Part shown: piece by piece, positions 54,405 through 58,555 of the stretch | Layout of the letters: the number at the start of each line of letters is the position of its first letter | How positions within the stretch are numbered: the first letter of the stretch is position 1 | From: Prochlorococcus sp. AG-402-N21 | GTDB taxonomy: Bacteria > Cyanobacteriota > Cyanobacteriia > PCC-6307 > Cyanobiaceae | Direction: 5' to 3' | Length of the DNA stretch: 64,000 bases | Assembly: GCA_003216435.1 (NCBI GenBank) | Contig: QCIW01000002.1 | Coordinates: 62,001-126,000, forward strand | Notes under the pieces: model-generated | What the model was told of the DNA's origin: nothing | The model's database searches: none | Seen by the model: the letters and a program-made list of their open reading frames with translations, nothing else | Translations under genes and position numbers: made by a program

Positions 54405-54596
54405 TTATTCTCTATATGGTTCTCCCATATAATCCATAATCAATATTTCAACATCAGTTATAGAAGAGGTAAGCCATTCCTTATATTCGCTCAACAATGC
54501 TTGCTGGTCGCCATCCTTGAGTAAATACATCCTGTCCATTGCATTGTCAATGGCAAACTCTACACATGTTTCTGCATTACTGGACTTTGTATCCAT
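54405..54596 (-). CDS. 63-residue protein, paralog of the gene at 56598
   Basis: The 63 residues contain the core DQQALLSEYKEWLTSS followed by DVEILIMDYMGEPY. The protein at 56598-56789 has DQLALAKEYKEWIQGP and DEEILIIDEF at the same spacing, so both belong to one small acidic family. It has no membrane segment. The function is unknown. It is transcribed on the minus strand in front of the two-helix membrane gene at 54031. Confidence 0.7.
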   Translation of the reverse strand: MDTKSSNAETCVEFAIDNAMDRMYLLKDGDQQALLSEYKEWLTSSITDVEILIMDYMGEPYRE

Positions 54597-56597: not shown

Positions 56598-56789
56598 ATG
56601 CACAGCATCCAGAGAATTGAAGACTCAATAGCTGAAACCTTAGTTAATGTCCTCAAAAGAGCCGAAGAATTAAAAGGCAAAGACCAATTAGCCCTAGCTA
56701 AAGAATATAAAGAATGGATTCAGGGACCTCCCTTCGATGAAGAAATACTTATTATTGATGAGTTTACTTTTAATGACTGTAACTTCTAA
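56598..56789 (+). CDS. 63-residue protein, paralog of the gene at 54405
   Basis: The 63 residues include VNVLKRAEELKGKDQLALAK, EYKEWIQGP and DEEILIIDEF, the same core as the gene at 54405-54596 (DQQALLSEYKEWLTSS ... DVEILIMDYM). The two copies are on opposite strands about 2 kb apart. The N-terminus is helical, with no membrane segment and no known domain. The repeat of a small family in one island supports real coding. Confidence 0.7.
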   Translation: MHSIQRIEDSIAETLVNVLKRAEELKGKDQLALAKEYKEWIQGPPFDEEILIIDEFTFNDCNF

Positions 56790-56864: not shown

Positions 56865-57128
56865 TCATTCATTGTTATTTCCCTCTATAAAAATCCTTCT
56901 AACAAGGTCAGCATTAATATATTTAATCTCTCCTGTATCAATATCTGCTACTTGAAAAATACTATTAACACATGGATCGCGTGCGCCACCTACGACATGC
57001 AGTACTTGACCCATCCACCATTTATCTATATTTTTATGCCTCAATTCTAAATCGTCTTCAACGATAACGATATCACCTGGCTTTACGCGAAGAAACTCCG
57101 GTGTAACTCTATCAATACCTACACACAC
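56865..57128 (-). CDS. DUF3104 protein under a LexA-type box
   Basis: The 87 residues contain LRVKPGDIVIVEDDLELRHK, KWWMGQVLHVVGGARDPCVN and SIFQVADIDTGEIKYINADLV, the DUF3104 signature found in marine picocyanobacteria. The small beta-rich protein has no known enzyme activity. A LexA-type SOS box lies 15-28 bases upstream of its start (57143-57156), which makes DNA-damage induction likely and hints at a role in stress or in response to DNA damage. The gene is isolated, with no co-transcribed neighbour. Confidence 0.82.
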   Translation of the reverse strand: MCVGIDRVTPEFLRVKPGDIVIVEDDLELRHKNIDKWWMGQVLHVVGGARDPCVNSIFQVADIDTGEIKYINADLVRRIFIEGNNNE

Positions 57129-57142
57129 AACTACAACTGATC

Positions 57143-57156
57143 AGTACATTTGTACT
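57143..57156 (-). promoter_or_regulatory. LexA (SOS) box of the DUF3104 gene
   Basis: AGTACATTTGTACT is a perfect palindrome with a 2-base centre and matches the cyanobacterial LexA consensus RGTAC-N3-DGTWCB at every position. It lies 15-28 bases upstream of the minus-strand start at 57128. A TTGACA (minus strand, 57181-57176) is placed 19-20 bases upstream of the box, so the box would overlap the -10 region, where a repressor would block initiation. Confidence 0.78.
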
Positions 57157-57299
57157 ATCATACTAGCTGTGTCATTGTCAAGTATTCATAAAGCTAAAAC
57201 GAGTGATAGTGAGCCCTATGTCTGGTTAGTAAGGCTCTCCTCAAAAGAACTTGCTTGATTTCATTTTTGTCGCATATTTGGCTTATCTATTTAATTGAA

Positions 57300-58030: not shown

Positions 58031-58555
58031 TTAAGAGTTTTCTGCAGTAGCTGCTTTAGCTGCTGCAGATTTTCTAGCACGTCTTGCTGGCCTAGGAGTT
58101 GTTGCTTTAGCCATTCGTTTTGCAACGGATGAGCTTCCTTTAGCTGTTGCTGCTTTTTTAGCAGTTACTTTCTTAGGGGTAGCTTTCTTGGCTGAAGCTG
58201 ATTTCTTAGTAGCCTTACTTTTGGCAGTAGAGGCTTTTTTAGCAGGAACCTTTTTGACAGGGGTTCCTTTACGGTTGCGATGAGAAAGGATTAAAGCCCA
58301 TTCTTCAGCGCTGATATTAGTGGGTTTGTTGCCATGTACTTCGGAGATCTTGGCGGCCTTCTCGATATCCTTTATGAGATTCTTCCAAGATGTCGCAAAT
58401 CTTTTGTCAGATTGAGATTTAGCACCACTCTCTACAAGCGTTTCTACAACACCTTGAGCAGTTACTTTTTTACGACGACGGTTAAAGATTTCTTTTTGAA
58501 GATGAGCAATTAAGGCATCTGCCTTAGCGCTCAGCTTGATAGTTAGTTGAGACAT
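58031..58555 (-). CDS. Histone-H1-like Lys/Ala-rich DNA-binding protein
   Basis: The 174 residues start with a ribbon-helix-helix-like segment (LTIKLSAKADALIAHLQKEI, then VTAQGVVETLVESGA). A helical middle (SWKNLIKDIEKAAKISEVHG, AEEWALILSHRNRKG) follows. From about residue 97 the tail is a Lys/Ala/Ser/Thr repeat such as PVKKVPAKKASTAKSKATKK and KKATPKKVTAKKAATAKG, ending AARRARKSAAAKAA-like (PARRARKSAAAKAATAENS). The tail has the character of histone H1 and bacterial HctA/HctB-type nucleoid proteins. DNA compaction or nucleoid binding is likely; the domain order is unusual. Confidence 0.75.
   Translation of the reverse strand: MSQLTIKLSAKADALIAHLQKEIFNRRRKKVTAQGVVETLVESGAKSQSDKRFATSWKNLIKDIEKAAKISEVHGNKPTNISAEEWALILSHRNRKGTPVKKVPAKKASTAKSKATKKSASAKKATPKKVTAKKAATAKGSSSVAKRMAKATTPRPARRARKSAAAKAATAENS

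Follow-up and report, generated by a model that had tools for sequence, protein, structure and literature searches.

The LexA operators of Prochlorococcus and Synechococcus have been described as TAGTACA-N2-TGTACTA (Li et al., 2010, PMC3091678; Kolowrat et al., 2010, PMC2921402), which is a tighter and more symmetric sequence than the RGTACN3DGTWCB box given for cyanobacterial and Gram-positive LexA (Mazon et al., as cited in PMC3091678). In marine Synechococcus, recA, lexA, umuC and dprA are induced by mitomycin C or UV (PMC3744912, PMC7393227), and a conserved hypothetical gene, sync_1474/SYNW1405, is strongly induced by mitomycin C (PMC3744912). Predicted LexA sites are unreliable when taken singly: among the genes predicted in two strains, 15 of 27 and 10 of 46, respectively, responded to mitomycin C (PMC3744912). 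For Prochlorococcus itself, a passage of a 2010 study describes the role of the SOS system as yet to be established (PMC2955971). In the portion of the open literature searched, DUF3104 appeared in a metagenome clustering passage and DUF1651 in one on cyanophage infection (PMC5490813), with LexA and SOS absent from both, and a published connection of either family with LexA was not found. The main texts of the published damage arrays and of Li et al. (PMC3091678) do not name DUF3104, and the latter names no DUF at all, although its supplementary tables may hold an unnamed prediction.

The locus studied here lies in a window of 64 kb, i.e., the whole stretch of DNA that was analyzed, from a draft genome of 1.36 Mb that is 76% complete. 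It had been predicted that a LexA-type box matching RGTACN3DGTWCB exactly was located 15-28 bases upstream of a DUF3104 gene and about 20 bases downstream of a TTGACA. A pattern scan of the window confirmed the sequence AGTACATTTGTACT and its position, as well as the TTGACA (Table 1). It was the sole RGTACN3DGTWCB site in 64 kb, scoring twice because it is a palindrome, and dinucleotide-shuffled windows contained a mean of 0.19 such sites. When scored with a position weight matrix (PWM), the box reached 20.3 and the runner-up in the window 11.6. Read on the gene strand, its sequence is TAGTACAAATGTACTG, which differs from TAGTACA-N2-TGTACTA at a single one of its 16 positions if the two N are counted as matches. 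The gene itself was assigned by a PF11302 profile match covering profile positions 2-66 of 69 (E 1.2e-26; 92.6 bits against a curated cut-off of 27), and the nearest named relative of its product is from an uncultured Prochlorococcus. The GTG is the sole in-frame ATG/GTG/TTG start, with an in-frame stop 15 nt upstream of it, and the distance from box to start codon was as predicted.

Table 1. Coordinates of the box, the candidate promoter elements and the DUF3104 gene in the 64-kb window.
Feature	Position	Strand	Basis
LexA-type operator (SOS box), AGTACATTTGTACT	57143..57156	none	pattern scan, PWM, conservation
TAGTAC, candidate -10 element that overlaps the operator (spacing to TTGACA, 18 bp)	57152..57157	-	spacing
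TTGACA, candidate -35 element, 19 nt before the box	57176..57181	-	sequence, spacing
DUF3104 gene (PF11302), 87 aa, GTG start	56865..57128	-	ORF list, profile match

An exact match to RGTACN3DGTWCB is uninformative in this genome, where the consensus is too loose: it was not enriched genome-wide (3+2 matches versus 2+3 for a reversed control), and a site of this kind on its own therefore proves little. The strict box with two mismatches allowed was likewise no more frequent than its control in this genome (48 versus 46). Neither scan was retained as evidence, since neither exceeded the reversed control. The exact strict box AGTACANNTGTACT, in contrast, was strongly enriched across 61 genomes of the host's cyanobacterial family, with 53 sites versus two reversed-control sites.

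Conservation of the box upstream of DUF3104 orthologs, which the original prediction had put forward as a check, was assessed with a PWM built from 28 published sites (Li et al., Table 1, PMC3091678), these being computational predictions and not footprints. We scored the 200-bp upstream regions of 82 DUF3104 loci from 33 genera, with 948 windows from the same loci as controls. At a score of at least 8, a LexA-type box was found within 200 bp upstream in 72 of the 82 loci and in 33 of the 948 controls; at a score of at least 12, the corresponding numbers were 57/82 and 2/948. Column-shuffled PWMs reached the latter score in a mean of 1.1 and a maximum of 6 of 82 loci. At least one boxed DUF3104 copy was present in 31 of the 33 genera (score of at least 10). 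Alignment of 65 loci on their boxes yielded TAGTACA..TGTACTA, flanked by columns that were near random. The outer T and outer A, neither of which is in the PWM, were present in 50/65 and 43/65 boxes, respectively, and the resulting consensus is the one published for Prochlorococcus LexA (PMC2921402).

Besides the box, no upstream sequence of the DUF3104 genes was conserved across genera, nor was any neighboring gene, so it is with the DUF3104 gene that the box stays. With its box conserved between near-random flanks and amid variable neighbors, the operator is evidently under selection and moves with its gene. DUF3104 copies lacking a proximal box were mostly extra paralogs: no recognizable box was seen for several paralogs in genomes G078 and G080, nor for single copies in G017, G035 and G222. 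In two further loci (L053, L055), DUF3104 is the second gene behind a boxed gene of a Cys4 family, so that a strong box is present but lies 307-308 nt away on the upstream side. The possibility that the box is a chance palindrome, i.e., an accidental consensus match before a gene outside LexA control, draws on the unenriched genome-wide scans but is hardly credible and was rejected in view of this conservation and of the excess of exact boxes among the 61 genomes. If anything, the case had been understated, as the box is family-wide and is carried by at least three other families of small proteins.

The host genome contains a lexA gene, the absence of which had been named as grounds against the original prediction. 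Its 208-aa product has HTH and S24 domains and the motifs AAGG, a possible Ala-Gly cleavage site, and GDSM and TTLKH, the Ser and Lys motifs, and is by sequence a LexA of the SOS type. The lexA ATG is preceded at 9 nt by the box GGTACATATGTATT and the recA ATG at 73 nt by CGTACGTCTGTACT, which are identical to the predicted LexA boxes of MIT9211 lexA and NATL recA, respectively (Li et al., 2010, PMC3091678). The DUF3104 box thus shares with published Prochlorococcus and Synechococcus operators its palindrome, its closeness to the gene start and the class of box found on the host's lexA and recA; it differs in that it precedes a lineage-specific small protein and not a repair gene.

A sequence by itself does not name the protein that binds it, and a different repressor with a LexA-like target, either another HTH factor or an S24-type protein, might respond to a signal other than DNA damage. 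We regard this as very improbable, however, because boxes of this class lie before lexA and recA here and before umuD and dprA in relatives, and because the box equals the published LexA consensus. The operator is conserved and belongs to the lexA/recA/umuD/dprA class; LexA binding, repression and induction at DUF3104 are inferred. At the level of comparative genomics, these data support the original interpretation: very probably, the site is an operator of LexA and DUF3104 belongs to the SOS regulon of picocyanobacteria.

The arrangement of promoter and operator was also compared among the 65 aligned loci, in which the box mostly ended 6-20 nt before the presumed start codon. The extended box begins with the six bases TAGTAC. 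TTGAC(A)-N16..18-TAGTAC was present in 11 of the 65 boxed loci, including the window (TTGACA-N18-TAGTAC), and only these 11 had a canonical -35 element. With TTGAC(A) 16-18 bp before TAGTAC, the -10 element would fall inside the operator, a layout that appears to fit direct occlusion of RNA polymerase. In an undamaged cell, LexA dimers would block RNA polymerase by sitting on TAGTACA-N2-TGTACTA, a site that would span the -10 region of the DUF3104 promoter as well as its transcription start. RecA filaments formed on single-stranded DNA would trigger LexA self-cleavage at the Ala-Gly bond and so open the promoter, from which a protein of about 87 residues, presumably an SH3/Tudor-like barrel, would be made from an mRNA with a very short leader.

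Among 60 relatives, DUF3104 was confined to the host's family of cyanobacteria. Up to 14 copies were counted in a genome. A sequence search of solved structures yielded no significant match, and DUF3104 had no match in PADLOC or NCBIfam. An AF2 model showed five strands in SH3/Tudor order with a pLDDT of 63; its input was an alignment of two sequences only, i.e., those of the window and of locus L030, with a 70-sequence alignment left out, and the model is consequently weak. In VIA-align, Tudor and SAWADEE domains scored best, with Z reaching 8.3, although common arrangements can also give a Z of about 8, and weak SH3_9 profile matches were obtained for 21 of 70 DUF3104 members (best E 2e-4). 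Like the known small beta barrels of this type (SH3_9, TDRD3, PHF1, SAWADEE, Spt5 KOW), DUF3104 is predicted to form a five-strand barrel, and a WW motif is located where its SH3-like stretch is about to end; it differs from them in its low-confidence model and in having no significant counterpart among solved structures. DUF3104 is probably an SH3/Tudor-like barrel, a fold that is plausible, not established, and that says nothing about function.

Bacterial SOS regulons often hold a short, lineage-specific division inhibitor, and DUF3104, a small protein with an operator close to its start codon, could be a checkpoint protein halting division, analogous to SulA, YneA or SidA. This seems quite unlikely, given that a checkpoint protein would not usually occur as several very different paralogs in one genome and that neither SulA nor the membrane inhibitors resemble an SH3/Tudor-like fold. 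Our best guess, offered tentatively and with rather low confidence, is that DUF3104 may act as an adaptor for as long as damage persists, its partner being a protein (or nucleic acid) involved in replication, repair or division.

The genes following 29 of the exact AGTACANNTGTACT sites of the family genomes were examined. DUF1651, a Cys4 “CMTC” family, a short “SSPYAVFRA” ORF or DUF3104 followed 22 of these sites, two were before dprA, two before a umuD-like S24 gene and three had no clear target. The dprA gene, for which control by LexA had been suggested earlier, is induced by UV in WH7803 (PMC7393227), and its presence in this set supports reading the box as LexA's. DUF1651 loci were boxed in 20 of 30 cases at a score of at least 12, versus 3 of 341 controls, and TTGAC(A)-N17-TAGTAC promoters preceded DUF1651 in many genera. 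The host genome has a DUF1651 gene of its own (L061:1501-1774; G000:C1:91216-91489) with a LexA-type box 14 nt before the start. Boxed genes were seen in the operon layouts box-SSPY-CMTC-DUF1651 and box-CMTC-DUF3104.

The Cys4 family (about 93 aa; CMTC..C..LLTC..HQRLI..GEH) is found directly after exact LexA boxes in many genera (e.g., L080:1501-1813, L085:1125-1514), and the two members examined had no Pfam match. The short ORF, SSPYAVFRAxDW...IGIGQCLR, begins some 12 nt past the LexA box, and the gene that follows overlaps it in a different reading frame (L064:1285-1514, L078, L085, L088, L092, L093); one copy is in the host genome. The exact boxes at position 1501-1514 of L090, L091 and L095 had no obvious target gene. 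In the host genome, an NAD-epimerase-like gene has its ATG almost directly after the box GGTACAAATGTATT, a sequence that also occurs as the lexA box of some Synechococcus (L155:298-1209; G000:C4).

DUF1651 (PF07864) resembles DUF3104 in being a small picocyanobacterial family with several copies per genome and the same operator; the two are unrelated in sequence, and infection data exist for DUF1651 (PMC5490813), whereas none were found for DUF3104. In several strains, DUF1651 genes are repeatedly among the host genes that go up when cyanophages infect (PMC5490813). A LexA operator before DUF1651, together with DNA damage during infection, would be a simple explanation for this rise, one that was not found stated in the open literature searched. 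DUF3104 might be a LexA target serving phage or mobile-element matters and not repair. It would then be an island gene or a host-response gene induced by SOS, which has been suggested for DUF1651. Its many copies without conserved neighbors and the infection response of DUF1651 are consistent with such a role. Against it, DUF3104 was not found among the viral sequences of IMG/VR, INPHARED and PHROGs and, as noted, had no PADLOC match, and we consider this role possible but somewhat unlikely.

Under the SOS reading of DUF3104, the nearly invariant family-wide operator would be the first regulatory context for the family and would make its role testable. DUF3104, DUF1651 and the two unnamed families would then define an SOS output specific to very abundant phototrophs, and their shared operator would link DNA damage with unexplained host genes whose levels increase when cyanophages infect. 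We see roughly even chances that picocyanobacterial LexA governs these four as a lineage-specific battery, which recombines into different operons and keeps its operator though scattered over the genome. Such a battery would be the main SOS output and may explain the DUF1651 “host-response” genes when cyanophages damage DNA.

Two 63-aa ORFs without a Pfam match flank the DUF3104 region of the window (56598-56789 on the + strand and 54405-54596 on the - strand) and look paralogous (EYKEW..., EILI.D). The protein encoded at 58031-58555 on the - strand (174 aa) has a tail that is rich in lysine and alanine and resembles histone H1, and relatives of this protein were also observed near DUF3104 in L030 and L010.
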